Source: Crocinitomicaceae bacterium (GTDB lineage: Bacteria; Bacteroidota; Bacteroidia; Flavobacteriales_D; Crocinitomicaceae). From it: DNA of 33,583 bases. The notes beneath the pieces were generated by a model. It was not told where the DNA came from. It saw only the letters and a list, made by a program, of their open reading frames with translations, and ran no database searches. Shown here piece by piece: positions 2,594-27,848 of this stretch. Location: the NCBI GenBank assembly GCA_025210175.1, contig JAOASF010000107.1, positions 1-33,583 of the forward strand, written 5' to 3'. The position numbers and the translations under genes were made by a program. Every line of letters starts with the position of its first letter. Position 1 is the first letter of the stretch.

Positions 2594-5500
2594 ATGCAAA
2601 AAATTACGATCTGGGTACTTTCGTGCCTATCATCTTTGTCCTTGTTTGCACAAACGGACATAACGGGTGTCGTTCGCGACGCTCAAACCGGAGCCACCAT
2701 TCCCGGGACCAAAATCGAAGAGGTGGGAACATCCAACAAAGTTTTATCTGACGCAGATGGAGCCTTTGCTTTGTCGATTTCAAACCCAAACACAACGCTT
2801 CGTTTCATTTATTTCGGGTACGATACCTTGGAATTGCAAACCAATGGCGAGCGCAAAATCATCGCCAACCTCTCATCAAAAGCCCAAGAAATTGGTGAAA
2901 TCGTAGAAACGGCCTTAGGTTTGAAACGTCAGACACGTGACCTAGGTTATGCCGTTCAGGATTTGGATACCAAAGAAGTTTCTGAGGTGAAGAGTCCGAA
3001 CTTCTTGGATGATTTAGCTGGGAAATTGGCAGGGGTAACGATCACGCAAGGAGCAACTGGTGTTGGTTCATCGACTAAAATTGTGATTCGAGGAGAACAA
3101 TCTTTCACCAACAACAACCCACTTTTCGTAGTAGATGGAATCATCATCAACAACCGCTCTGTCGTGAACCCAACTACGGATGCAGCGTCTGGTTTCCAAG
3201 AAATCGACTTCGGTAACGGAGGAATGGAAATCAACGCAGATGACGTGGAGTCAGTAACGGTTTTGAAAGGACCATCAGCAGCGGCTCTTTACGGAACACG
3301 CGCATCGAATGGGGTCATCATCATCACAACCAAAAACGGAAAGAAATCAAAAGGGATGGGCGTTAGCTTCAATAGTACTACGTACATGGAACAAGCTTTC
3401 AAACTTCCTGAATTCCAAAACAAATATGGTCAGGGTAACTCTGGTCAATTCGCATATGTAGATGGTCGCGGTGGAGGAGTTAACGATAACATTTCGTACA
3501 GCTGGGGACCTGAATTGAACGTTGGTTACATGACCACTCAGTTTGATGGACCGGTTACTTTGCCAGATGGAACAGTTGTTCGAGGTGGTGATGTAGCGGT
3601 ACACGGTGGTGCAGCGATTACTCCAACGGAAATGGTTTCATACGACGACAACTTGAAGGACTTCTACAACACAGGAGTAACGACGATGAACTCCATCGCT
3701 TTAGATCAAGGTTTCGACAAAGGAAATGTACGTTTCTCTTTCGGAGATATGCGTTCAAAATCAATCATCCCAGGTGTAAACTTGGATCGCAACAATGTAT
3801 CTGCGAAATTGAATTTCAACCCAACAACTCGTTTGAATGTAGGATCAACGATTCACTACATCAATTCTCGCAGCGACAACCGTCCAGGTGCTGGTTACGG
3901 TTCTGAAAACTTGAATTACTCATTGGTAGCTTGGGGACCTCGTTCATTGAACATCGCAGCAATGGAAGATTACTGGCAACCAGGTTTAGAAGGATTGCAA
4001 CAATATTCTTTCAACTACACGTATTTCGATAACCCTTACTTCATTTTGTACGAAAACCGTAACTCGTTTACACGTGATCGTTTGATGGGAAGTATGCATG
4101 CTAGCTATGACATAACTGAGCATTTACAGTTAATCGTTCGCACGACAATGGATTACTCAAATGAGGAAAGACAAATGCGTCGCGCATACTCAAGTAATCG
4201 TTTCATCAATGGTGCTTATGCAGAACAAACCGTTGGGTTCCGCGAGAACAACTCCAACTTTTTGTTGACTTACAACCGCCGCGTTGGAGATATTCGTTTC
4301 GAAGTTTCAGCAGGTGGTAACCGAATGGATCAATACACAGGAAATCAGATGATGACAGCAGTTGGATTGGCACAACCAGGTGTTTACCGCTTGTCGAACG
4401 CTGCTTCTCCATTGACAATAGATGAGTATTTCACAAGAAAACGCATCAACAGTTTGTACGCCTTAGGAAAAGTGAGCTACAAAAATTACTTGTACTTGGA
4501 TATCACTGGAAGAAATGACTGGTCTAGTGCTTTGGCATCACCAAGCTCAACGGCAAACGTTAGCTTCTTCTACCCTTCAGCATCTCTTGGATTTGTTGTG
4601 AGCGAAGTAGTTGACCTTCCTGATTTTGTGAACTTCGCGAAAATTCGTGCAAGTTTGGCGCAAGTGGGTAACGATACAGATCCTTATCAAACGGCAAATA
4701 CATTTATTCCTCAGGTAGCTTACCAAAGTCAACCTACATTCTCAAACCAAACGTTGATCGCAAATGGGAATCTTTCTCCAGAGCGTACAACAAGTAGAGA
4801 AATCGGTGCTGATTTGAGCTTCTTCAACAATCGTTGGAATATCGACATCACATACTACAATGCTGTTACGACTAACCAAATCATTGCCCTTCCGGTAGCG
4901 GTTTCTTCTGGTTACAACTCGCAAGTTGTGAACGGTGGTCAAGTAAATTCTCAAGGATGGGAAATCTTTACCAGTGTTAAGGCTGTCGATAAAACAAAAT
5001 TCAAGTATACAACAGGATTGAACTTTTCCCGCAACGTTTCTACAGTAAGTGATTTGCCAGAAGGAGTTGACAAGATTACGCTTGCTTATTCATCTATTTA
5101 TGACAACGTAAACCAAACAGTATGGTTCCAAGTTGAAAACGGTGGTCGCATCGGTGACATGTACGGTACAGGTTACAAGAAAACAGATGACGGACGTTTC
5201 ATCGTTGACGCTAACGGAAACTTCATTGCCGATAACGAATTGCAAAAATTAGGAAACTACAACCCAGATTTCATGTTGGGATGGAGTAACCAATTTAGCT
5301 ACGGTAAATTCAACTTTGGCTTCTTGTTCGACTGGAGACAAGGTGGAATCTTGGTATCTCGTACTCAAGCCTTAGCTGGTGTTGGAGGTCAGTTGATCGA
5401 AACGGAAGATCGTCCAACAGATGGTATCGTTGTGGATGGTGTTGTAAACGTTGGAACAGAAGAAAGTCCTGAATACGTTGAAAACACAACGGCAATTTCA

Positions 5501-5812
5501 GCAGAATCGTACTACCGTCAGTACTACGATCGTAACCACGAAGTAAACAACGTATACAATGCAACTTACATCAAATTGCGTCAGTTTAGCTTCGGATACA
5601 CCTTTGATTCGAAAAAAGCTTCAGGATTCTTGGGGGCTGGTCGTGCATTGAATGTTTCAATCATTGGAAGAAACTTGTTTGCCTTCTCAGCAATTCCTCA
5701 TTTCGATCCAGAGCAAACTGCTACACAAGGACAAAAATTCTTGAACGGAGTGGAAGACATGTCATACGCTTCTACACGTAGTATCGGTATCAAATTGGGT
5801 TACAACTTCTAA
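2594..5812 (+). CDS. SusC/RagA family TonB-linked outer-membrane transporter
   Basis: This 1072-residue protein has a signal peptide ending near residue 20 (SLSLFAQ). A carboxypeptidase-regulatory-like domain follows (about 22-95, TDITGVVRDAQTGATIPGT). The SusC junction motif (GLKRQTRDLGYAVQDL) comes next, then the plug (FLDDLAGKLAGVTI, LFVVDGIIINN, VTVLKGPSAAALYGTRASNG). The rest is a long barrel whose last strand ends in LGYNF, with a C-terminal aromatic residue as expected. It forms the outer-membrane channel of a SusCD complex, powered by TonB/ExbBD. The partner SusD starts 11 bases downstream. Codons favour TTC, AAC, TAC and CGT, which suggests high expression. The ligand is unknown; the absence of glycoside hydrolases nearby argues against a typical polysaccharide utilisation locus. 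Confidence 0.95.
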   Translation: MQKITIWVLSCLSSLSLFAQTDITGVVRDAQTGATIPGTKIEEVGTSNKVLSDADGAFALSISNPNTTLRFIYFGYDTLELQTNGERKIIANLSSKAQEIGEIVETALGLKRQTRDLGYAVQDLDTKEVSEVKSPNFLDDLAGKLAGVTITQGATGVGSSTKIVIRGEQSFTNNNPLFVVDGIIINNRSVVNPTTDAASGFQEIDFGNGGMEINADDVESVTVLKGPSAAALYGTRASNGVIIITTKNGKKSKGMGVSFNSTTYMEQAFKLPEFQNKYGQGNSGQFAYVDGRGGGVNDNISYSWGPELNVGYMTTQFDGPVTLPDGTVVRGGDVAVHGGAAITPTEMVSYDDNLKDFYNTGVTTMNSIALDQGFDKGNVRFSFGDMRSKSIIPGVNLDRNNVSAKLNFNPTTRLNVGSTIHYINSRSDNRPGAGYGSENLNYSLVAWGPRSLNIAAMEDYWQPGLEGLQQYSFNYTYFDNPYFILYENRNSFTRDRLMGSMHASYDITEHLQLIVRTTMDYSNEERQMRRAYSSNRFINGAYAEQTVGFRENNSNFLLTYNRRVGDIRFEVSAGGNRMDQYTGNQMMTAVGLAQPGVYRLSNAASPLTIDEYFTRKRINSLYALGKVSYKNYLYLDITGRNDWSSALASPSSTANVSFFYPSASLGFVVSEVVDLPDFVNFAKIRASLAQVGNDTDPYQTANTFIPQVAYQSQPTFSNQTLIANGNLSPERTTSREIGADLSFFNNRWNIDITYYNAVTTNQIIALPVAVSSGYNSQVVNGGQVNSQGWEIFTSVKAVDKTKFKYTTGLNFSRNVSTVSDLPEGVDKITLAYSSIYDNVNQTVWFQVENGGRIGDMYGTGYKKTDDGRFIVDANGNFIADNELQKLGNYNPDFMLGWSNQFSYGKFNFGFLFDWRQGGILVSRTQALAGVGGQLIETEDRPTDGIVVDGVVNVGTEESPEYVENTTAISAESYYRQYYDRNHEVNNVYNATYIKLRQFSFGYTFDSKKASGFLGAGRALNVSIIGRNLFAFSAIPHFDPEQTATQGQKFLNGVEDMSYASTRSIGIKLGYNF

Positions 5813-5823
5813 AAGAAATCAAG

Positions 5824-7284
5824 ATGAAAAGAATGATAAAATACATAGGAATCGTCCTTCTTTTAGCAAGTGCAACGGCTTGTAAAAAGGACTTTGATTT
5901 GATCAACACCAACCCTAACGCACCGATTGATGTGCAACCAAGTTTGTTGTTGCGTCAAGTAATTTACGATTACGGAGAGCAAATGTCGTATGAAGGCTTT
6001 GTGGCTGGAAACCTTTTGGGGCAGCACATGTCGATGACCGACTTTAACTTGTTCGATCGTCACGCTCTAAGCCAACCTCAATTGGGAGGAAATCCTTGGC
6101 CTGTATTGTATAAAAACCTTCGCGACAACCAAATCCTTTTGGAAAAATCGCAAGGGGAAGCAATCTATAAAGTTTACGAAGGTCCAGCACATATCTTAAA
6201 GGCATACATCGCTATGGCCTTGACGGATATTTACGGTGATGTTCCTTACTCTGAGGCTTTGAAAGGATTGGAAGGAAACACAGCTCCGGCTTACGATAAG
6301 CAAGAAGATATCTACTTGGCTGCAGGAGGAATCTTGTTTGAGTTGGATGCAGGTATCGCGGCCATCAATGCCTATTCTGGCGTTCAGCCTTTGACTGGAG
6401 ACATTCTTTATTCAGGTGATTTGACAAAATGGAAAAAGTTTGCAAAATCACTTAAGATCAAAGCTTTGATGCGTATTTCAGATCAAGCTGGTAGCATTAG
6501 CTACGATGTTGCAGGAAACTTGCAAACCTTGGTAACAGAAAACGATTACATCAGTGCAAATACAGACGATGCTTTGTTCCGTTTTACGGCTTCACAACCG
6601 AATTCATTCCGTATGCAAAAATTGCGTGAGGGTGATTTCAAGCAGTTCGTGATGTCTCAAACGAGCGATACCTTGTTCAGCATGTACAACGATCCTCGCG
6701 ATTTGACTTTCTTCCGTACTTCAGCGGATGCAAACGATCCATTGAATGGTTTGATCAACGGTATCAATGCAAGTACAACTTCAATTGTTGCTGCAAATTA
6801 CTCGTTGGCGAGCATGTGGTTTAGAGAGAATACGGCTGATTTGCCATGCAACTTTATGTCGGCATGGGAAACGCAATTCTTCATCGCTGAGGCTTGTGAG
6901 AAAGGCTTGGTTACAGGTGTAGCGAAAACCTATTATGACGCTGCAGTAACCAATGCATTTGCCTACTGGGCAACGGATCTTCCAGCTACATATTTGACAG
7001 TTGGACCTGGAGCATATGGTACAACGGGCGACAACATGGAACAAATCATGACCCAAAAGTGGTTTGCTAGCTTCATGAATGGTTACGAAAGTTGGATTGA
7101 ATACCGTAGAACCGGTTACCCAGCTTTGCTGCCAGTATCAGCAAGTTTGAACAACAATTTAATTCCAGTGCGTATGCCTTATCCTACGGATGAGGAAGCT
7201 TTGAACTTCGGAAACTATGTGACCGCTTCAAGCAATACAAATGGAAACAGCATCAACGTTCGCGTTTGGTGGGATATTAATTAA
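5824..7284 (+). CDS. SusD/RagB-like substrate-binding lipoprotein
   Basis: The 486-residue protein carries a lipoprotein signal, with a hydrophobic stretch and the lipobox ATAC at Cys20, then KKDFDLINTNPN. The last part (DLINTNPNAP) is typical of the SusD-like start. The middle is rich in helical, TPR-like segments (for example YEGPAHILKAYIAMALTDIYG and DLTKWKKFAKSLKIKALMRI), and the C-terminus carries FMNGYESWIEYRRTGYP, a hallmark of the SusD-like family (the SusD-like_2 branch fits best). It sits on the outside of the outer membrane as the lid of the SusC channel and binds the imported ligand. It starts 11 bases after the SusC stop and shares its codon bias, so the two form one operon. A hairpin follows its stop. 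Confidence 0.95.
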   Translation: MKRMIKYIGIVLLLASATACKKDFDLINTNPNAPIDVQPSLLLRQVIYDYGEQMSYEGFVAGNLLGQHMSMTDFNLFDRHALSQPQLGGNPWPVLYKNLRDNQILLEKSQGEAIYKVYEGPAHILKAYIAMALTDIYGDVPYSEALKGLEGNTAPAYDKQEDIYLAAGGILFELDAGIAAINAYSGVQPLTGDILYSGDLTKWKKFAKSLKIKALMRISDQAGSISYDVAGNLQTLVTENDYISANTDDALFRFTASQPNSFRMQKLREGDFKQFVMSQTSDTLFSMYNDPRDLTFFRTSADANDPLNGLINGINASTTSIVAANYSLASMWFRENTADLPCNFMSAWETQFFIAEACEKGLVTGVAKTYYDAAVTNAFAYWATDLPATYLTVGPGAYGTTGDNMEQIMTQKWFASFMNGYESWIEYRRTGYPALLPVSASLNNNLIPVRMPYPTDEEALNFGNYVTASSNTNGNSINVRVWWDIN

Positions 7285-7296
7285 AATTATCTTCAC

Positions 7297-7325
7297 GGTC
7301 CCCAGCATCAGTTGGGGACCCTTTT
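7297..7325 (+). terminator. Hairpin after susD (terminator or attenuator)
   Basis: A perfect 8-base-pair stem GGTCCCCA / TGGGGACC (7297-7304 with 7313-7320) encloses an 8-base loop and is followed by CTTTT. This has the form of an intrinsic terminator for the SusCD operon. It lies only 6 bases before the ATG of the symporter gene, so it would also limit read-through into that gene and could occlude its ribosome-binding region. Confidence 0.75.
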
Positions 7326-7331
7326 ATACCG

Positions 7332-8684
7332 ATGACAATCTTATCCTGGCAATGGACCCTTGTGGTTAGCTCTTGTTTAACCTTCTTTTTTCTCTCTCCG
7401 TGGGCGAAATCAGTAAAGGAGTTTTTTGTAAGCTCCGAAAAGAAACAAGAACAACCCACTACTCTTCTTTTGACGAGTAGCTTGGTCATTTCGTGGATAT
7501 TCGCAAAGTCCATTTCTGTGGTTGCCGGCCTTGGGTTTTCCTATGGTTTGGTTGGAGCCGTTGCCTATGGGGTTTATTACCTTTCGTTCATAGTAGCCGG
7601 CTATGTGTTGGTCCGCATGCGAATGAAAGGAAACTTAACTTCCATCCCTTCCTTTATAGAAGGAAAATTCGGTCGATCCGCCTTGGTTCTTTTCACCATT
7701 TTAATTGGGTTTCGCTTGTTCAATGAGGTTTGGTCCAATACCATGATCATTGGAGGCTTTTTTGGCGAAACAGGTTCAACTCCATACTACCTGGCTATTT
7801 TAACTTTTACCGGCTTAACCATCGCTTATGTGATCAAAGGAGGAATGAAAAGTTCTCTTTTTACCGACGGTATCCAAATGCTGCTTTTCGGGATCTTATT
7901 AGCGGTCATCTTGTTGGTCTTATTCAATACAAATACTGAAAAAATGGATTGGTCAAAAATGTCAGGCGAATGGAAATTTGACCAAGGTGTCAATTTACTT
8001 TTAGTGGCCTTCATTCAAATCTTCTCCTACCCTTTTCACGATCCTGTAATGACCGACAGGGCTTTTGTTTCTTCGGTGGATGTAACCAAAAAGAGTTTCT
8101 TCAGAGCAGGAATCATTGGATTCATTTGCATCGTATTATTTGGCTTTGTGGGCATCTTGGCAAAAGCCATGAATCTCGAAGGAGAACCGGTTATGGCTAT
8201 CGGACAATTGATCGGTCTACCCATGCTACTTCTGATGAATTTCATCATGATTACTTCAGCTACATCTACCTTGGACAGTACCTTTACAAGTTTTTCTAAA
8301 CTCTTTGTATTCGACTTAAAAATGGTTGGATCTGCCTCCGTTTCAAAAGGTCGAATAGCCATCGTAGTTCTGGGTTTATTGGGTACCCTTCCTGTTTTCT
8401 TGAACAGTGAAGTAATTAGTGCCACCACCATCAGCGGGACCATGGTTTTGGGATTGGCTCCTGTTTTTCTTTTTTGGAAAGACCGATCGGCTCCCCAAGC
8501 CTATTTTGGGTCCATCCTTACGGGAATCGTTTTTGGAGTTTTATTGGCAACTAATAGTTTTCCTTCCAGCTGGTTTTGGACGGATGGGAAGTACAATGAC
8601 CTCCTCTGGGTCAACATCGTGGCAACAATTGCTTGCTTTTTCGTTTACTTTGTAAGTGCAATTATATGGAAGAAAAAAGGATAA
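7332..8684 (+). CDS. Sodium:solute symporter (SSS family) inner-membrane transporter
   Basis: This 450-residue protein is almost entirely hydrophobic, with about 12 likely membrane helices. The SSS-family signature is visible at about residues 169-183 (KGGMKSSLFTDGIQM), and the SWIFAKS segment lies in an early helix (54-60). A polar loop with HDPVMTDRAF follows later. The family moves sugars, amino acids, nucleosides, vitamins or urea with sodium; which one applies here cannot be told. The length is at the short end for the family. The ATG at 7332 lies just after a hairpin and gives a good N-terminal helix. Its 3' end overlaps the next gene by 19 bases, which implies translational coupling. 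Its position after SusCD suggests it carries the inner-membrane step for the same ligand (inference). Confidence 0.9.
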   Translation: MTILSWQWTLVVSSCLTFFFLSPWAKSVKEFFVSSEKKQEQPTTLLLTSSLVISWIFAKSISVVAGLGFSYGLVGAVAYGVYYLSFIVAGYVLVRMRMKGNLTSIPSFIEGKFGRSALVLFTILIGFRLFNEVWSNTMIIGGFFGETGSTPYYLAILTFTGLTIAYVIKGGMKSSLFTDGIQMLLFGILLAVILLVLFNTNTEKMDWSKMSGEWKFDQGVNLLLVAFIQIFSYPFHDPVMTDRAFVSSVDVTKKSFFRAGIIGFICIVLFGFVGILAKAMNLEGEPVMAIGQLIGLPMLLLMNFIMITSATSTLDSTFTSFSKLFVFDLKMVGSASVSKGRIAIVVLGLLGTLPVFLNSEVISATTISGTMVLGLAPVFLFWKDRSAPQAYFGSILTGIVFGVLLATNSFPSSWFWTDGKYNDLLWVNIVATIACFFVYFVSAIIWKKKG

Positions 8685-9553
8685 AACAGTACAATTATAC
8701 AGGTGAGCGCCTACTCATTTTTGGCGGTTCTTATTCCAACTTTCAGGCACTTGAGGAGCTGAAAAGAATTGCTGATGAACATGGTTTTAACAAAGAACAA
8801 ATCATTTGTACGGGAGATGTTGTTGCTTACTGCGCGCAGCCCGAGGAAAGTGTCAACCTGATCAAGGATTGGGGTATTTTAACTTTGGCTGGAAACGTCG
8901 AAATTCAATTGCGAAATGGTGACGATGATTGTGGTTGCAACTTCAATGAAGGAAGCCGATGTGATCTTTTTTCTCGACAATGGTATCCCTATGCCAAAGC
9001 ACGTTTGAGTGAAGCTTCAATCGATTGGATGCACGGTTTACCCGATGTGGTCCTCATGGATTGGAACGGAACACGTGTCGGGATAGTTCATGGAACACAC
9101 GAAGAAACAGCGGGATATATTTTCGGATCGACTCCTTGGGAAGAAAAGAAGCGATTGATTGACAACTTGGGCGTTGACCTTATGATAGGCGGACATTGTG
9201 GATTGCCTTTCCACCACCTCGAAGAAAACCACCTTTGGTTCAATGCCGGAGTAATCGGTATGCCTGCCAATGATGGTACCGACCGAGTTTGGTATGCCAT
9301 TGCAGAAATGAAGGACGACGAAATCGTTTTCACTCACCATTGTTTTGAATATGATGCCGTGGAATCCAGCGCACGAATGCGCGAAGAAAAGTTGCCTCAG
9401 GAATATGCAAAAACCTTACTCAATGGCATTTGGGATAGCAATGAAATTTTACCACCAGCGGAAACAGCCCTTCAAGGTCAACCCATTTCACTTTCCGACA
9501 TCCAGGTTTGCTTTCCAAAGAAACCAGTTATAGTCCAAAGTAACAGAGCCTAA
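8666..9553 (+). CDS. Calcineurin-like metallophosphoesterase with variant metal motifs
   Basis: The ATG at 8666 gives 295 residues and overlaps the symporter stop by 19 bases. The frame is open further upstream, but that part lies inside the symporter gene. The order of motifs is that of the metallophosphoesterase fold: GGSYSN (20-25) where DxHGN is expected, TGDVVAY (49-55), AGNVE (75-79) where GNHD is expected, VHGTHEE (141-147) and GGHCGLPF (175-182). The first metal-binding Asp and His are therefore replaced, while the GD, GN, VHG and GGH positions remain. A cysteine-rich stretch DDCGCNFNEGSRC lies at 87-99. Members of the superfamily hydrolyse phosphomonoesters or phosphodiesters; the substrate is unknown here. 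Coupling to a symporter suggests it acts on the imported compound or a derivative of it. Confidence 0.85.
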   Translation: MEEKRIKQYNYTGERLLIFGGSYSNFQALEELKRIADEHGFNKEQIICTGDVVAYCAQPEESVNLIKDWGILTLAGNVEIQLRNGDDDCGCNFNEGSRCDLFSRQWYPYAKARLSEASIDWMHGLPDVVLMDWNGTRVGIVHGTHEETAGYIFGSTPWEEKKRLIDNLGVDLMIGGHCGLPFHHLEENHLWFNAGVIGMPANDGTDRVWYAIAEMKDDEIVFTHHCFEYDAVESSARMREEKLPQEYAKTLLNGIWDSNEILPPAETALQGQPISLSDIQVCFPKKPVIVQSNRA

Positions 9554-9779
9554 AACATCCCCAAAACTGTATTTCTCTCTACTCCTTTTGTTGTAGTTTT
9601 GATGTGGCGCCCAAACTTTATTTTGAGGGGTGAATCGGGTTTTATAAATTCGCTTTTTAGGTGCTTCTCCTTCTTCCTTAATCTCCTTATAATTATTAAT
9701 TTAAGCCTTGCGTATCATTATGCGGTCATAGCTTTTTAGCCCAAGTACTGAGCCGAAGTTGTGCCATTTAAAATTTAGG
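9554..9779. other. Intergenic region upstream of the histidine kinase
   Basis: These 226 bases hold no convincing gene. TAGTTTTG at 9594-9601 matches the Bacteroidetes -7 consensus TAnnTTTG on the plus strand, but no clear TTTG box lies at the expected distance upstream. An AT-rich block lies at about 9680-9710. No hairpin with a T-run follows the phosphoesterase gene. Confidence 0.4.
9594..9601 (+). promoter_or_regulatory. Possible -7 promoter box
   Basis: TAGTTTTG fits TAnnTTTG. It would give a leader of roughly 170 bases before the histidine kinase gene. Support is weak because the -33 box is missing. Confidence 0.3.
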
Positions 9780-11468
9780 ATGAAGACAAACACCCGCTAT
9801 ATCATCTTGCTTAGCGTTTTGACGCTCACCTTGTTGCTTTCGCAAATCTTCTTGCAAAACAGCATATCTAGTAGCCAGAAAGATTCGTTTATAATCAATA
9901 TCTCCGGTCGCCAGCGTATGCTTAGTCAAAAAATCACCAAACACGCCTTACAGCTTCGTTCGCATGTGAAAAACCCCAATTGGGATTATGTGGTGCCGGA
10001 ATTGAATGAAACCTTAAAAGATTGGGAATTTGGTTTACACTATCTCACCGAAGATGAAGGAGCCAGTTTAACCAACCCAAAAGTTCAGGAGCTATTCTCC
10101 AAGGCAAAACCCTATTTTCAAGAAATTCAAGCAGCCACTATTGCGATTACTCAAATGCACAGTGTAGGGAGGGTTGATACCTTACAGGCGGAAGAACTCA
10201 TCGAACGCATTCAGTCCAACGAAGAAAACTTTCTTGAATTGATGGACGAAATAACCTATGAACTCGACCGAATTTCTCAGGAAAAAATTTCCCGATTGCG
10301 CACCATCGAGTTCATTCTTTTGAGCTTTACACTTCTGATTTTGGCTTTAGAAGTATGGGGAATTTATCAGCCCTTAAGCAAAAAATTGCAATCGAAAAAT
10401 GAACAAAATAAAAACCTCACCACCATCATCGATTCACTCGAAAATTACGGTGTCCTTTATTTGGATCCGGATTTCAAAGTGATAGGTGGCAACAAGGGAG
10501 CAAGTAACCTGTTTCAGTTCACCAAGGAAGAATTGACCGGGAAATACCTCGGGTTTTTGTTCGCCGAAGAACTGGCCGAAAACTTCAACCAAGACAAATG
10601 GGTGGAAATGGTTAAACAAAGAGGCATGATGCAAATAAGCGGTTCACATGCGACCAAATCGGGCGAAAACTTTTATGCTGCCTCTACCTTGCTGAAAGTG
10701 GAAACCGCGGAGGGAAAATTGGGGTATACCTTGCTGACGGTTGACCAGAGCCTGTATCTCAAAAATAGGCAACTAAATGAGCAAAACCAGCAATTAACGC
10801 AGTTCAACTACATCGCTAGTCACGACCTCAAAGAGCCCCTTCGAACGATCAAAGGCTTTTTAAAACTCATGGAAACGGAATATGCCGACGATTTGAATGA
10901 GAGTTACCAGACCATGATGCATCACATCGTTCATTCCGCAGATCGGATGGAAAACTTGATTACTTCCTTGCTCAGTTATGCCCAAACAGGCGCAAACCTG
11001 CAATTTGTTGAGCTCGACCTAAATCATCTGATAAAAGCAGTGGTAAGCGATCTTCAAAAACGAATGGAAGAAAGAGAGGTGAATTTTGAGTGTGAGAAAC
11101 TGCCGAAGTTGGTGGCTAGTTCCGTAGAGATCCGCCAATTGTTCCAAAACTTGATTTCCAATGCCATTAAGTACACTCCCAAGAATCGCAAACCCAATGT
11201 GAAAGTTCGCTGTACAGAGGAGGAACAATTTTTCCATTTCACTATAGAAGACAACGGTTTCGGTATCGAAGAAAAATACCTTCATGAAATATTCAAGCCC
11301 TTCAAAAGACTACACGGTTCCGAAGATACCGAAGGTCAAGGTTTGGGATTGGCACATTGCCAGAAAATTGTGGAATTGCACCAAGGCAAAATTTGGGTAG
11401 AAAGCATCGTAAACGATGGTAGCCGTTTTCATTTTACCCTTTCCAAAAAATTGACGGTAAACTCCTAA
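9780..11468 (+). CDS. Membrane sensor histidine kinase (PilJ-like sensor, PAS, HisKA, HATPase_c)
   Basis: The ATG at 9780 is chosen because the transmembrane helix follows it directly; a TTG at 9759 is possible. The 562-residue protein has a first helix (about 8-25) and a periplasmic helical domain with SGRQRMLSQKI (42-52), the mark of PilJ-type sensor domains. A second helix (about 176-195), a PAS domain (about 213-325), HisKA with phospho-accepting His348 in ASHDLKEPLR, and HATPase_c with QNLISNAIKY (N box), EDNGFGI (G1) and GQGLGLA (G2) complete it. It should autophosphorylate at the inner membrane and pass phosphate to a response regulator. No regulator gene is adjacent, so it is an orphan in this window. 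Its stop overlaps the stop of the convergent gene at 11465. Confidence 0.93.
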   Translation: MKTNTRYIILLSVLTLTLLLSQIFLQNSISSSQKDSFIINISGRQRMLSQKITKHALQLRSHVKNPNWDYVVPELNETLKDWEFGLHYLTEDEGASLTNPKVQELFSKAKPYFQEIQAATIAITQMHSVGRVDTLQAEELIERIQSNEENFLELMDEITYELDRISQEKISRLRTIEFILLSFTLLILALEVWGIYQPLSKKLQSKNEQNKNLTTIIDSLENYGVLYLDPDFKVIGGNKGASNLFQFTKEELTGKYLGFLFAEELAENFNQDKWVEMVKQRGMMQISGSHATKSGENFYAASTLLKVETAEGKLGYTLLTVDQSLYLKNRQLNEQNQQLTQFNYIASHDLKEPLRTIKGFLKLMETEYADDLNESYQTMMHHIVHSADRMENLITSLLSYAQTGANLQFVELDLNHLIKAVVSDLQKRMEEREVNFECEKLPKLVASSVEIRQLFQNLISNAIKYTPKNRKPNVKVRCTEEEQFFHFTIEDNGFGIEEKYLHEIFKPFKRLHGSEDTEGQGLGLAHCQKIVELHQGKIWVESIVNDGSRFHFTLSKKLTVNS

Positions 11469-12316
11469 ACTTCAAATGGATACTCTTGGAGTACCTCCCC
11501 ATCCATATAGAGAACTAAGGTATATTGACCTGTTTCCCATCCAGACACGGTTAACTTAAAGCCCATGTTGTAATTTCCTTTTTGCGGAAAAGTACTTTTA
11601 CTCTGGTAGGTTCTGAGTACCGAACCAGCGGCGTCGATTACTTGATAACTCAATCTTCCCCCCGGCTTTTCGACTCGGTAACTCAATTTTGCTTCCACAC
11701 TCACAGGCAAGCGAAGTACCTGTCTGTTTTCATCCATTTCTATTCGTCTTTTCTTTTCATACCAAGGCTCGTCCACCCCGTTGATGCTACAAACCAATTT
11801 GCGAAGCTCATCTACATCCTTGTTGTTTTCTTCAAACAAAGAAGTAGGCAACTCTCCATCACAAATGTTCCAGATAGCATCTTGTATCAGATCCTTTGAA
11901 ATATTTTTTTGTGGTAAAAAGGCGACCAACTGGGCAATTCCCTTGGAAGGATGAACACCTACCTTAAAATCTGAATCCAAACTAGGCACGGCATTGGAAG
12001 CTTGACAACAATACCCATCAATTTCATTGACTTTTTTTTCGCGCGTTGCAAGCAGCTCTTGCTCCTCCACCACTAACATATCCTGCATTCCATCATCGAT
12101 GGTGTGAAAAACCGAACCTCCAGGAATAACAATCTTCAAAACACCGCCTTTGATTACTTGTACTTCGAGATTTACCGCCTTGCCATTCATATTACCCGTA
12201 GACTTGGCCTGAATCTTTACAAGTCCTTCAGCCAATGCTTCATGAATGTTTTTGGTCGTAATGGCCTGAGCCGTGAGGGAACCAAAGAAAAATAATACAG
12301 CAAGAATCTTATACAT
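11465..12316 (-). CDS. Secreted protein of unknown function
   Basis: I do not recognise this family. The 283-residue product begins with a clear signal peptide (MYKILAVLFFFGSLTAQA) and has no lipobox cysteine. Residues about 25-110 look like a compact beta domain (KAVNLEVQVIKGGVLKIVIP, then GSVFHTIDDGMQDMLVVEE) that ends in the cysteine pair GYCCQAS at 103-104. Further cysteines are at 152 and 176, so disulfides are possible in the periplasm. The last 90 residues look like a second beta-sandwich (RLSYQVIDAAGSVLRTYQS, WETGQYTLVLYMDGE). That region resembles a fibronectin-like or sorting-domain-like fold, but it lacks a YPNP motif, so I do not call it a T9SS sorting domain. The gene is convergent with the histidine kinase and divergent from the GNAT gene. 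Confidence 0.75.
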   Translation of the reverse strand: MYKILAVLFFFGSLTAQAITTKNIHEALAEGLVKIQAKSTGNMNGKAVNLEVQVIKGGVLKIVIPGGSVFHTIDDGMQDMLVVEEQELLATREKKVNEIDGYCCQASNAVPSLDSDFKVGVHPSKGIAQLVAFLPQKNISKDLIQDAIWNICDGELPTSLFEENNKDVDELRKLVCSINGVDEPWYEKKRRIEMDENRQVLRLPVSVEAKLSYRVEKPGGRLSYQVIDAAGSVLRTYQSKSTFPQKGNYNMGFKLTVSGWETGQYTLVLYMDGEVLQEYPFEV

Positions 12317-18786: not shown

Positions 18787-19761
18787 TCAAGGATACAATT
18801 CGTATTGGAAATTCTCCACGTAAACAAATCCGCCTACATTGTTTGGGTTTTGCTTCTGATGAAGAACGGTATTGGGCACGTTCATTTTGTTCAACAGAAA
18901 ACGCGTCTTGATGCGCGTGAGGTACTTTTCATCGCTAAAAACCGAGTCAATATACCCCGTGCAGAAACCCGGCAAATTGTACAAAAATGAGCGCTCTGAT
19001 CGAAAGGGATAATCCTGCTTTTCTATGCGCAAAATAGCTCCTCGGTGGTAACTAAACTTCTGCACATCGCGTTCTATTACCTTGTTTTCTACTCGGTATA
19101 TCTTGGTCGGACTCGGCAAGTCGCCCACTATTATTTTGTCCTTTGGCGTTGGGCTCAACAGACGATCTATTTCCAACGGATTTTTCAATTTTTTATCGCG
19201 CAACAGAAAAAGATAATTCCCCGTTTCCGAATTGCGGTAAACGGTATACTTGTCCGCTTTTTCTATCAAGGTATAGACGTGATACAGGTCCTCCTCATTG
19301 TCATCGTAAGAGGGCATAAAATCGCCCGCTCCAAAACGCACCATCGAATCCTTTAAAACTGCGCGGTACAAGTCCGTGTTTTTTACCTTCGGATAGGCAA
19401 AATCGAAGCGACTAATCACCTGATCGTCGAAAAATCTGCGGTGCGAGACGCGTGAAATGGAGCCGTCCTCCCGAAAGTAATATTCCCACTGCTCGCGGGG
19501 CACCATGGACGTGGTGTCAACCTGCGTAACGCCCTCTATGCGTGGGTAAATACTGCGAACGATGCGACAAATACGCTGACGAGCCACCAGGGTGTCGTTG
19601 AACCACAAGGGAAAAGAAATTTCCTTGCCCAAATCCGAATACATCACCTGGTAATTGATCATGGCAGGCGGACGTTTGCGCTTGATTAAGCTCTTGCGCT
19701 TCCCCTCCGACTGACAAGCAACCAACCACAACCCCAAGAAGACGATTAGATAGAACCGCAT
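18787..19761 (-). CDS. Predicted lipoprotein of unknown function
   Basis: I do not recognise the family. The ATG at 19761 gives 324 residues with a compact lipoprotein signal (MRFYLIVFLGLWLVAC, Cys16), followed by a basic stretch GKRKSLIKRKRPP. An ATG 60 bases upstream would put a second hydrophobic segment in front and is less likely. The body is rich in charged and aromatic residues and looks like beta-rich periplasmic protein (WEYYFREDGSISRVSHRRFF, YHVYTLIEKADKYTVYRNS). No catalytic motif stands out. It precedes pdxA on the same strand, but pdxA appears to have its own promoter. Confidence 0.75.
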   Translation of the reverse strand: MRFYLIVFLGLWLVACQSEGKRKSLIKRKRPPAMINYQVMYSDLGKEISFPLWFNDTLVARQRICRIVRSIYPRIEGVTQVDTTSMVPREQWEYYFREDGSISRVSHRRFFDDQVISRFDFAYPKVKNTDLYRAVLKDSMVRFGAGDFMPSYDDNEEDLYHVYTLIEKADKYTVYRNSETGNYLFLLRDKKLKNPLEIDRLLSPTPKDKIIVGDLPSPTKIYRVENKVIERDVQKFSYHRGAILRIEKQDYPFRSERSFLYNLPGFCTGYIDSVFSDEKYLTRIKTRFLLNKMNVPNTVLHQKQNPNNVGGFVYVENFQYELYP

Positions 19762-19854
19762 TTTTTTGCTTTGATTGAAGATAGGGAAAAAGATAGGAAA
19801 AGAAATCAAGAACCACTTCATCTAGGATTTCGACCAACTTTCTTGAAAAAAAAT

Positions 19855-25715: not shown

Positions 25716-27848
25716 TTAGGGAACAATCTGGTCGATGCTGAACCAAATTACGGGATTCAAGTTTCCTTCCTTCACCTCTAAAACAGGATGCTCCAATTTG
25801 AGCTTACCCGAGCGCTTCGACTCGACCTCTGTGGAAGAAAGAATTTTTCCTGTTTTATAGGCAAAATAGGTCACTTTGTACTTATTCTTCCCTTCTAACC
25901 CTTTCAATACCAACTTATTGCTTTTTTCACCCACCGGTCGTTGGCTCTCAAAATAGTCGTTGTTACCCGTAATTACATTTTTCAGCTGGGCGCAGTCAGA
26001 TTCATCCGATAGTCGGTTGGTATACACATTATACGAACGATTCATCAACACACCGCTTGCATCCTTCCCATTCTGACCGAGATAATAGTGTATTTCTTTG
26101 ATGCTTTCTGCTTTTTTGAAAAGGCCAACTTTTTCATCTGCCACTTGCGTTATGGTCTGGTACTTCCCTTCTCCTTCCATCAAGGTGGTTTGAGCGGTAA
26201 ATTGCATGTATTCTTGTGTTCTAATCAGAGGAGTCCAAATGGATCGATCGTCCTGCCCTTTGCCATCGGCTTGATGAAAAAATACTTCCCACAAATTGAA
26301 GCCCGCCAAACCGAGAAAACCTGTCGTCATGATGTCTACAGGTAGTGTTTTATTGCCACTGCAATCTCCAAGTTGATCGGCCGTTTGAGTTTCGCTAAAA
26401 TAGATGGGCTTTTTGTAGTGCTGATGCAAAACTTTGATCCGCTCCGAAAGAACATTGTTGCTACTCAAACTAAAATGAGAGGCAGAGGCTTTGTAAACAT
26501 TCATACAAATCACATCGATATAGGGACTTTCCCAACTCGTGTCATTCGTTCCTCCTGGTTCATTCGGATACAAGGGATTGTTCAAGCCCGGCATGTGACT
26601 CAAAGCCGCAAGTGGATGGTCGGTATACCCCAATTCTTCTTTGATGTATTTCCCCATTTCGTGATGAAACTTGGCCACTGCCTTCCTAGTCGGTGAATCT
26701 CCTTTTTCGGTATCGTAAGGAGAACCTGGAATTCGGTCGTCTTGATTCATCCAGAAGGGTTCACTCATCAACTCAATAAAGCTGATTTGGGCAGAATAAC
26801 CCCAACGCGCCATGATGTAGCGGTAACGCTCCTTGAAATATTTAAAGGCTTCTGGTTTGGTGATAATCTCGCTCGGTTTGGTTAGTACAAACGCCTCTTG
26901 GTAGGCATAAGCTGGACGTTGTGACTCCGGACTCACCCCAAAATCCCATGACTTAAACTCGTTGTCAAAAATTTTAAACGGCGATTGGATCATGCAATTG
27001 AACTGAATCATCAAATCTTTTTCTTCCGCAATTTCAAAGAAGTGATCCATTTCCCAAGCCAGGTTGAGACGATCGGTGTAATTCCCCAACTTTTCGAATT
27101 CGATTTCGGACGAGGTAGGTTCCATAATGAAGCGAATGTACTTTCCTCCCTCGTTTGCATATCGTTTAATATCTTCCTGATAAATGGTCCAAGCGGAAAG
27201 GTTCAGCTCGTCTTTTGGGTTACCCGAATAGTACAAGTTGTTGTCTACATACGGTGAAAACAAGTTGGCCCCCACGGGATAAATCATCTTTCCTCCTCTT
27301 TCGAAGTTTTTCTGATTGGCATGTACACGAACCAAGCCCGCTTTGTTACTTTTCACTATTTCAACCGCTTGGGTGCGAACAGAGCGAACTTCTTCACCGT
27401 TGATCCACTCTTTGATTTCGACCTTCCATTTACCAGCATCTGGCAAAGCTACACGAAAACGGAAGGGATACAGCGTCTGCCTTTTAATCCAAGTATTTTG
27501 AATTTTCTCGCGTGAATAATCTTGGTAATAAAAACCCTCAACCGACTTTTCTTGACCTGTTTCACTATTGGTAAACGTAGCCGTGTATCTCACCTGCCAA
27601 CTCAAATATGGGTTCAACATTTGATCGGCGGGTACCTTTCGATTCATGATGAAGTTTTTCATTTTTTGATACACTTCCTCTTTGGGAATGAATCCCAACT
27701 CAACCGTTCGAAACGTTCCAACTTTTCCCTTTTCATCCCCACTCAATAAGACCACGTCCTTTTGAGGAGTTAGGTAAATCGGTGAATTAACTTGAGCAAA
27801 TAAGTTCCCACAAAAGAGAAGAAAGAAAAAAGCAAGTATTCGGTGCAT
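25716..27848 (-). CDS. Secreted DUF5060-type GH-A-like glycoside hydrolase (putative)
   Basis: The 710-residue protein has a signal peptide (MHRILAFFFLLFCGNLFAQ). A beta-sandwich follows at about 45-165 (FRTVELGFIP, RYTATFTNSETGQ, GKWKVEIKEWING), which resembles the DUF5060 domain that precedes TIM-barrel hydrolases. The barrel region (about 185-530) begins FERGGKMIYPVGANLF. Candidate catalytic acids are Glu363 in FIELMSEPFW, placed like the acid/base of clan GH-A, and Glu486 in PIYFSETQTAD, placed like the nucleophile. The tail at about 560-700 is beta-rich and has no T9SS motif, so it probably stays in the periplasm. Family and sugar substrate are unknown. It follows hisIE after 70 bases, with a weak hairpin between them. 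Confidence 0.78.
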   Translation of the reverse strand: MHRILAFFFLLFCGNLFAQVNSPIYLTPQKDVVLLSGDEKGKVGTFRTVELGFIPKEEVYQKMKNFIMNRKVPADQMLNPYLSWQVRYTATFTNSETGQEKSVEGFYYQDYSREKIQNTWIKRQTLYPFRFRVALPDAGKWKVEIKEWINGEEVRSVRTQAVEIVKSNKAGLVRVHANQKNFERGGKMIYPVGANLFSPYVDNNLYYSGNPKDELNLSAWTIYQEDIKRYANEGGKYIRFIMEPTSSEIEFEKLGNYTDRLNLAWEMDHFFEIAEEKDLMIQFNCMIQSPFKIFDNEFKSWDFGVSPESQRPAYAYQEAFVLTKPSEIITKPEAFKYFKERYRYIMARWGYSAQISFIELMSEPFWMNQDDRIPGSPYDTEKGDSPTRKAVAKFHHEMGKYIKEELGYTDHPLAALSHMPGLNNPLYPNEPGGTNDTSWESPYIDVICMNVYKASASHFSLSSNNVLSERIKVLHQHYKKPIYFSETQTADQLGDCSGNKTLPVDIMTTGFLGLAGFNLWEVFFHQADGKGQDDRSIWTPLIRTQEYMQFTAQTTLMEGEGKYQTITQVADEKVGLFKKAESIKEIHYYLGQNGKDASGVLMNRSYNVYTNRLSDESDCAQLKNVITGNNDYFESQRPVGEKSNKLVLKGLEGKNKYKVTYFAYKTGKILSSTEVESKRSGKLKLEHPVLEVKEGNLNPVIWFSIDQIVP

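Follow-up and report, generated by a model that had tools for sequence, protein, structure and literature searches.

A conserved SusCD-symporter-phosphoesterase-like gene cassette of Bacteroidota linked to arsenosugar metabolism

We describe a gene cassette encoding a DUF2064 protein, SusC, SusD, a sodium:solute symporter (SSS) and a metallophosphoesterase-like (MPE-like) protein. Its link to arsenosugars is well supported, and a role in arsenosugar metabolism is very probable. The best explanation, to which we give an even chance, is an uptake-and-activation module of that metabolism, in which an arsenical would be reduced by the MPE-like protein to feed the radical SAM enzyme ArsS. The window, that is the whole stretch of DNA analyzed, comprises 33,583 nt from a Crocinitomicaceae bacterium (GCA_025210175.1, contig JAOASF010000107.1, positions 1–33,583, forward strand), and contains the cassette as follows:

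1830–2564, + strand: DUF2064/CofC-like protein, a divergent TIGR04282 paralogue (PF09837, 82.3 bits; true start unsure)
2594–5812, + strand: SusC/RagA-type TonB-dependent transporter (TIGR04056, 549.7 bits, and TIGR04057, 59.9 bits, both above cut-off)
5824–7284, + strand: SusD-like surface lipoprotein (PF12771, 288.4 bits)
7332–8684, + strand: putative Na+:solute symporter, SSS family (PF00474, 24.5 bits, cut-off 22.8)
8666–9553, + strand: calcineurin-fold MPE-like protein with a degenerate metal site, proposed arsenical reductase (PF12850, 31.6 bits)

The last four genes run head to tail as the first-pass annotation described, spaced by 11, 47 and −19 bases, the negative value being the symporter/MPE overlap (8666–8684, counted from the ATG at 8666). 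The DUF2064 gene, overlooked in that annotation as the fifth, upstream member, is on the same strand, stops 29 bases short of SusC and is part of the conserved unit. A histidine kinase gene (9759–11468) was rejected as a further member, since in 11 further order genomes the MPE gene has no kinase 3′ of it. Scans of the window for tRNAs and Rfam families gave no matches. The SusC-SusD pair has the TIGR04056, TIGR04057 and PF12771 matches of polysaccharide-utilization loci, but differs from these in being linked to symporter and MPE-like genes and in lacking the CAZymes, sulfatases or peptidases that mark such loci; the reported absence of carbohydrate-degrading enzymes was borne out by Pfam: of the 27 window proteins, none matched a glycoside hydrolase, sulfatase or peptidase family, and three had no Pfam match at all.

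Relatives of the MPE-like protein were confirmed in 569 candidate stretches of a species-genome collection. The best 80 of these 569 were taken as named loci with about 10 kb on either side, and their reading frames were labeled with a simple longest-ORF script; cassette counts are lower bounds because truncation at contig ends and spurious reverse ORFs, as at L058 and L089, can hide members. SusC, SusD, SSS and MPE genes are consecutive in at least 70 of these 80 loci, and the same gene order is seen in 10 of 11 further genomes of the order that have a strong MPE match. This layout is conserved far beyond chance, and it sustains the proposal that a small solute is imported across the outer and then the inner membrane. 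DUF2064 lies 5′ of SusC in at least 62 of the best 80 loci. The RGPP/NKGSP signature with which DUF2064 ends was considered as a nucleic-acid element and rejected as such: free variation at third codon positions marks it as a protein motif. The symporter and MPE genes overlap in 53 of the 69 loci measured, which suggests a common substrate.

The SusCD-symporter linkage would be in doubt if homologous SusCD pairs usually lay without the symporter, but orthologues stay linked: SusD adjoins the symporter in 12 of the 13 order genomes that have the symporter clade. All six SusDs at 58% identity or more (the window's own included) adjoin it, as do six at 35–38% identity, with two others in that range (G015 and G051) apart from it, while 17 further genomes have only distant SusD relatives (30–35%) without the symporter. 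In the order sample the symporter clade is confined to the cassette and present in 13 of 199 genomes. The symporter scores 50.8 bits against TIGR00813 (cut-off 184), yet its model has the SSS-type fold (CHT1: Z 37.3, rmsd 3.0, 439 residues aligned). The fold is shared with CHT1, DUR3, SiaT and SGLT across about 420–440 residues, at only 12–17% identity. A PDB sequence search with the symporter found no close relative of known substrate, thus none that would assign the clade to an unrelated, well-defined one.

The cassette keeps company with arsenosugar genes. ArsS (TIGR04167) is encoded within about 10 kb in 55 of the best 80 loci and elsewhere in the genome for 24 of the other 25, making 79 of 80. 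In samples whose genomes are related to one another, ArsS was found in 13/13 genomes with the symporter clade vs. 69/199 overall for the order (Fisher p 4.7e-7), and in 9/9 genomes with a strong MPE match vs. 156 overall among 395 for the phylum (p 2e-4). The window's genome has ArsS on another contig (C209; 448.6 bits, above the TIGR04167 cut-off). In many Flavobacteriaceae the cassette is inside an arsenosugar cluster; at L109 it is flanked by TIGR04169-ArsS on one side and rhodanese-TIGR04282-PNP-ArsM-TIGR04283 on the other, all scoring above their cut-offs. The cassette is embedded in, or dependent on, ArsS/ArsM clusters (TIGR04167, NF038099, TIGR04169, TIGR04282, TIGR04283), from which its DUF2064 differs in scoring below the TIGR04282 cut-off (107.5 bits in the window, cut-off 134), whereas the copy adjoining ArsS in the same genome passes it (188.7 bits). 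ArsM and ArsS of Synechocystis are reported to catalyze the first arsenosugar steps (PMC8552651); the pathway descriptions surveyed do not name SusCD, the symporter or the MPE-like protein.

The MPE-like protein was modeled (pLDDT 92.5) as a calcineurin fold. Its best structural matches are phosphoesterases, the closest being an Ap4A hydrolase (SapH, 3qfm; Z 25.4, rmsd 2.8, 244 residues aligned). Binuclear calcineurin-like phosphoesterases carry the motifs DxH, GD, GNH[DE], H and GHxH. In the window protein and all 80 relatives (best 80 of 569) these read GxY, GD, GNVE, H and GHxG, although the positions within FGGxYSN and N[AP]GVIGMP are partly selection conditions because the loci were retrieved with patterns covering them; a 12-row alignment from pattern-free searching gave the same residues. 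The changes (D to G and H to Y in motif I, GNH to GNV, GHxH to GHxG) replace three metal ligands and the catalytic His in 80/80 relatives, and four cysteines (C56, C89, C91 and C99) are invariant in the same 80. Retained are D51, N77, H142 and H177, which we take to be metal-2 residues under our assumed allocation of ligands to metals; with the phosphoesterase-like fold, these mean that hydrolase activity may persist. In a tree the cassette MPEs group with full support, while Paraclostridium and generic proteins, on long branches, are unsure in place. The MPE frame continues into an AhpD-like TIGR04169 domain in 17 of the best 80 loci, so that in some genera the proposed thiol reductase and an AhpD-like putative redox partner form one reading frame.

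The first proposal, uptake of a phosphoester, nucleotide or vitamin to be processed by a true phosphoesterase, draws on this fold and on the kept residues presumably of metal 2. It is nevertheless very unlikely, and we rejected such substrates: motif I, GNH and GHxH are broken in every close relative examined, the four cysteines are invariant, relatives outside the cassette occur mainly in arsenic operons, and the cassette follows arsenosugar genes. That the last gene acts on the cargo in the cytoplasm is still probable; its identity as a phosphoesterase is what fails, given the replaced ligands and catalytic His.

Outside the cassette, relatives are found mostly in arsenic operons. Weaker phylum matches to the MPE number 12, and at the 11 whose loci were examined CGC is present in all and ACR3 adjoins in seven. 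Six of eight plasmid relatives examined (from 28 records) lie in ars operons. In three ars-operon relatives CGC falls at residues 74–76, the positions of Cys74 and Cys76 reported to be essential in Car1 of Rufibacter tibetensis, a metallophosphoesterase-type As(V) reductase (PMC12124457). Two ars-operon relatives, a second Pedobacter copy and that of Flammeovirga, lack CGC, so ars context alone is no proof of the redox type. The cassette MPE is about 24–27% identical to Car1-like proteins, a comparison with homologues and not Car1 itself. With Car1, as cited in PMC12124457, and its ars-operon homologues it shares the superfamily, CGC (C89 and C91), a GNH motif without its catalytic His and the association with arsenic genes. 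It differs in having also lost the D and H of motif I (SD[IV]H in 11/11 phylum relatives vs. GGxYS) and the last His of GHxH, in its invariant Cys56 and Cys99, and in traveling with SusCD/SSS and ArsS. On a Roseomonas haemaphysalidis plasmid (NZ_CP061178.1, L131) an MPE copy of the same subtype (41% identity) is the last gene of an operon that likewise holds a TIGR04282 member over cut-off, two radical-SAM genes and an importer; here, however, the importer is a PhnD/PhnE-type ABC system in place of SusCD-SSS, and the radical-SAM proteins fall short of the ArsS cut-off.

The MPE-like protein resembles a relative of an arsenic-reducing enzyme, and the cassette travels with arsenosugar genes. The cargo is therefore probably an arsenical, not a sugar or nucleotide, and we moderately favor the MPE as a thiol reductase. 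A non-arsenical partner in arsenosugar assembly, for instance a glycerol- or sulfonate-derived aglycone, with the MPE acting elsewhere in the pathway, might suit the DUF2064 paralogue, which may act on an intermediate of sugar or nucleotide type. The common substrate suggested by the symporter/MPE overlap and the arsenic ties of the MPE family make this improbable.

Arsenate usually enters cells through phosphate transporters. Import of inorganic arsenate by the symporter, reduction by the Car1-like MPE and passage through ArsM to ArsS would agree with the reported As(V) reductase activity of Car1 (PMC12124457) and with the PhnD/PhnE-type importer of the Roseomonas operon. It would have no need of SusCD, the cassette metal site is more degenerate than the ars-operon type, and 7 of 13 order cassette genomes have no ArsM-like gene at E ≤ 1e-20; we rate it as improbable too. 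ArsM-like genes occur in 6/13 order cassette genomes vs. 47/56 other ArsS genomes (p 0.008), NF038099 in 0/13 vs. 23/56, and within the class ArsM is in 3/8 vs. 18/20. The cassette as a general replacement for ArsM was rejected: for the phylum, where 72 of 156 ArsS genomes were chosen so as to thin near-duplicates (a set without the window's genome), arsenosugar-type ArsM is in 3/8 cassette vs. 22/64 other genomes (p 1.0), and ArsM is near the cassette in 20 of the best 80 loci. In the window's genome an ArsM-like gene scores below cut-off.

We infer reductase activity, cargo identity and transport direction for the cassette. A pentavalent organoarsenical, either a methylarsenical or an arsenosugar, is a plausible cargo, at slightly under an even chance. 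In the uptake-and-activation module, the arsenical would cross the outer membrane through SusCD and the inner one through the Na+ symporter. The MPE-derived protein would convert pentavalent to trivalent arsenic through a cysteine pair, as reported for Car1 (PMC12124457), and ArsS would adenosylate the trivalent product (e.g., dimethylarsinous acid) en route to arsenosugars. Against this, a small methylarsenical has no obvious need of SusCD. A larger cargo would fit SusCD if the system salvaged algal arsenosugars or arsenosugar-phosphates, imported by SusCD and the symporter and then reduced or opened by the MPE; seaweeds are reported to be rich in arsenosugars (PMC6656958) and marine Flavobacteriaceae account for many of the cassette carriers. 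Dependence on ArsS (79/80) points to a pathway precursor more than a product, and we consider salvage unlikely, though less so than import of arsenate.

Among CC-licensed PMC papers, our search found none joining arsenosugar with TonB, and the matches listed for arsenosugar with SusC-type words included no title that seemed to concern such a locus. The cassette is widespread, yet bland gene names hide its arsenic link. We suggest, tentatively, that Bacteroidota actively scavenge organoarsenicals by dedicated TonB- and Na+-driven import of pentavalent arsenic in methylated or sugar-bound form, with a new thiol-reductase subclass, built on an MPE with a half-dismantled metal site, making it trivalent and so feeding ArsS. 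If so, uptake and reduction steps would be added to arsenosugar metabolism, arsenic uptake would have a TonB-dependent route, and a phosphoesterase fold would have been converted towards redox chemistry. The cassette would offer a testable genetic marker for marine arsenic cycling, and arsenic would be for these bacteria a wanted building block, not only a toxin to expel.

The first-pass annotation had claimed SusC, SusD, an SSS symporter and a metallophosphoesterase (MPE) head to tail; all four are present as described, with intergenic distances of 11, 47 and −19 bases, the last being the SSS/MPE overlap. A DUF2064 gene, absent from that annotation, is also a member of the conserved unit:

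1830-2564, DUF2064/TIGR04282-like gene, its stop 29 bases 5′ of SusC
2594-5812, + strand, SusC
5824-7284, + strand, SusD
7332-8684, + strand, SSS symporter
8666-9553, + strand, MPE, a calcineurin-fold protein

A Pfam scan of the 27 window proteins found no carbohydrate-active enzyme, sulfatase or peptidase, in agreement with the earlier statement that no carbohydrate-degrading enzyme lies nearby. A TonB-plug/OMP_b-brl_3 receptor gene (3-1649, −), truncated at the contig end, is divergent from the cassette, and a PilJ-PAS histidine kinase (9759-11468, +) lies 205 bases 3′ of it, a placement that is not conserved. Proteins of 283, 344 and 710 aa (11468-12316, 18790-19821 and 25719-27848, all −) have no Pfam matches.

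Strong MPE matches occur in 12 of 199 genomes of the window's order, its own among them; two more have weak generic matches only. The gene order seen by the first-pass annotation proved to be conserved: SusC-SusD-SSS-MPE is retained in 10 of the 11 other strong genomes (one of them has two short called ORFs separating SSS from MPE, and in one more the contig end truncates SusC), DUF2064 lies upstream in 8 of the 11, and one is reduced to SSS-MPE. Named species genomes were also scanned, confirming 569 candidate stretches encoding an MPE relative, of which the best 80 (loci L031-L110) were retained. Among these best 80 of 569, SusC-SusD-SSS-MPE is uninterrupted in 70, accompanied by DUF2064 in 62, and the SSS-MPE pair is found in 75; 53 of the 69 loci measured have overlapping SSS and MPE frames. 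Three loci (L034, L086, L101) have a cassette-type MPE without SusCD or symporter according to the ORF script, with ArsS still in their genomes. The symporter clade is found in 13 of the 199 order genomes, namely the 12 with strong MPE and one 57 %-complete genome whose partial symporter match lies directly 3′ of a cassette-type SusD. SusD relatives (E <= 1e-40) are found in 31 order genomes. Of these, 12 have the symporter clade (36-60 % identity, the window itself set aside) and the other 19 lack it (30-37 %). Cassette-type DUF2064 proteins (window and L031-L110) carry a short near-C-terminal motif, (F/Y)NKGSP or RGPP/RAPP, missing from the canonical TIGR04282 tails compared; because third codon positions vary, the conservation is that of a protein motif.

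The cassette is associated with arsenosugar metabolism. The radical-SAM marker ArsS (TIGR04167), reported to adenosylate arsenic during arsenosugar synthesis (PMC8552651, PMC12159101), lies within 55 of the best 80 of 569 loci and elsewhere in the genome for 24 of the remaining 25, a total of 79/80. It occurs in 13/13 symporter-clade genomes of the order sample vs 69/199 overall (Fisher p 4.7e-7), and in 9/9 strong-MPE genomes of the phylum sample vs 156/395 overall (p 2e-4), p-values that are too small owing to kinship among genomes; cassette genomes come from four families of the order; those of the phylum sample come from six, counting the window's own. The association runs one way, many ArsS genomes being without the cassette. 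Patiriisocius marinistellae (L109) has TIGR04169, ArsS, the five-gene cassette, rhodanese NF045521, TIGR04282, purine-nucleoside phosphorylase (PNP) and arsenosugar-type ArsM, with TIGR04283 farther along, every flanking gene scoring above its own family cut-off. Among the best 80 of 569 loci, canonical TIGR04282 is found in 34, PNP in 32, TIGR04283 in 23 and ArsM in 20. The genome that holds the window has TIGR04169, ArsS, TIGR04282 and TIGR04283 clustered on a different contig.

The MPE model (pLDDT 92.5) has the calcineurin fold, nearest to SapH, 3rqz, 1nnw and 2gju (Z 24-25; next group Z 16). In all 80 relatives motif I DxH has become GxY, GNH has become GNV and GHxH has become GHxG, and D51, N77, H142 and H177 are retained; by the usual ligand scheme, the metal-1-only ligands and catalytic histidine are lost and the metal-2 ligands kept. 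Residues C56, C89, C91 and C99 are invariant in the 80 and in the 12-row free-search set. In 17 of the 80 loci (L035, L068, L082, L108 and 13 more, from Maribacter, Euzebyella, Flagellimonas, Cellulophaga and others) the MPE frame continues without a stop into an AhpD-like TIGR04169 domain. An internal ATG before this domain is retained in the 16 of these 17 that were listed, so that the product may be a fusion or two separate proteins; it would be reasonable for a thiol reductase to be coupled to a thiol-redox partner.

The next-nearest MPE relatives in the phylum (11 of 12 examined) have SD[IV]H, GNYD and CGC, and ACR3 lies within the same 3.6-3.9 kb stretch in 7 of the 11. Six of eight plasmid relatives opened are in ars operons (Pedobacter, Hymenobacter, Pontibacter, Flammeovirga, Paraclostridium, Rubrobacter); of the other two, Roseomonas has a radical-SAM/TIGR04282 cluster and Halorubrum no arsenic context. 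CGC (residues 74-76 in three ars-operon relatives) co-occurs with loss of the GNH histidine in Pedobacter (first copy), Hymenobacter, Paraclostridium, Pontibacter and Rubrobacter; GNHD is retained, and CGC missing, in Halorubrum, Flammeovirga and the other Pedobacter copy. CGC without the GNH histidine (L132-L136 and L138 compared) is a possible signature of a redox-type metallophosphoesterase. A Paraclostridium metallophosphoesterase from an ars operon is reported to be ~40 % identical to Car1, the Rufibacter tibetensis As(V) reductase, and to have Cys74 and Cys76, essential in Car1 (PMC12124457); Mucilaginibacter ars operons are likewise reported to contain uncharacterised metallophosphoesterases (PMC10652896). 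MPE belongs to a superfamily branch with one member reported to reduce pentavalent arsenic via a cysteine pair.

That branch membership, with a cassette almost never found without ArsS, suggests import and reduction of a pentavalent arsenical. SusCD and the symporter would carry the solute into the cytoplasm, where it is probably a substrate of MPE, whose gene is last and overlaps that of the symporter. The ArsS substrate is trivalent dimethylarsenic, and on the economical reading MPE would reduce the imported arsenical to supply it. The symporter model (pLDDT 87.4) has the SSS fold. VIA-align ranks CHT1, which transports choline, first (Z 37.3, rmsd 3.0, 439 aligned), and next the urea transporter DUR3 and the sialic acid symporter (Z 33). 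Identity in these matches is 12-15 %, and they do not set the substrate. Cassette MPEs and the Roseomonas copy share one side of a 100/100 branch, and in Roseomonas a PhnD/PhnE-type ABC importer occupies the place of SusCD-SSS. Methylated arsenicals are similar to phosphonates, and by this analogy the importer fits an arsenical cargo without proving it. The Roseomonas haemaphysalidis plasmid operon (L131, NZ_CP061178.1) reads TIGR04282-DUF547-radical SAM-radical SAM-PhnD/PhnE-type importer-MPE; of its radical-SAM proteins, one resembles the Rv1681 family under cut-off (94.9 bits), and a putative selenate-binding family is a further match for the importer's binding protein.

In the order, ArsM-like genes (E <= 1e-20) occur in 6/13 cassette genomes vs 47/56 other ArsS genomes (p 0.008), and arsenosugar-type ArsM in 0/13 vs 23/56 (p 0.003); the window's genome retains an ArsM-like gene scoring under the family cut-off. 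When the phylum sample is restricted to the class, arsenosugar-type ArsM is found in 3/8 cassette vs 18/20 other genomes (p 0.009), and it is found in 3/8 vs 22/64 among all 72 phylum ArsS genomes tested (p 1.0). The deficit hints at import of pre-methylated arsenic in some lineages and is no general rule.

We found no account of the combined cassette among CC-licensed PMC papers. Its components are known; what appears new is their combination, a SusCD import locus that ends in a divergent Car1-like gene and is tied to the metabolism of arsenosugars.
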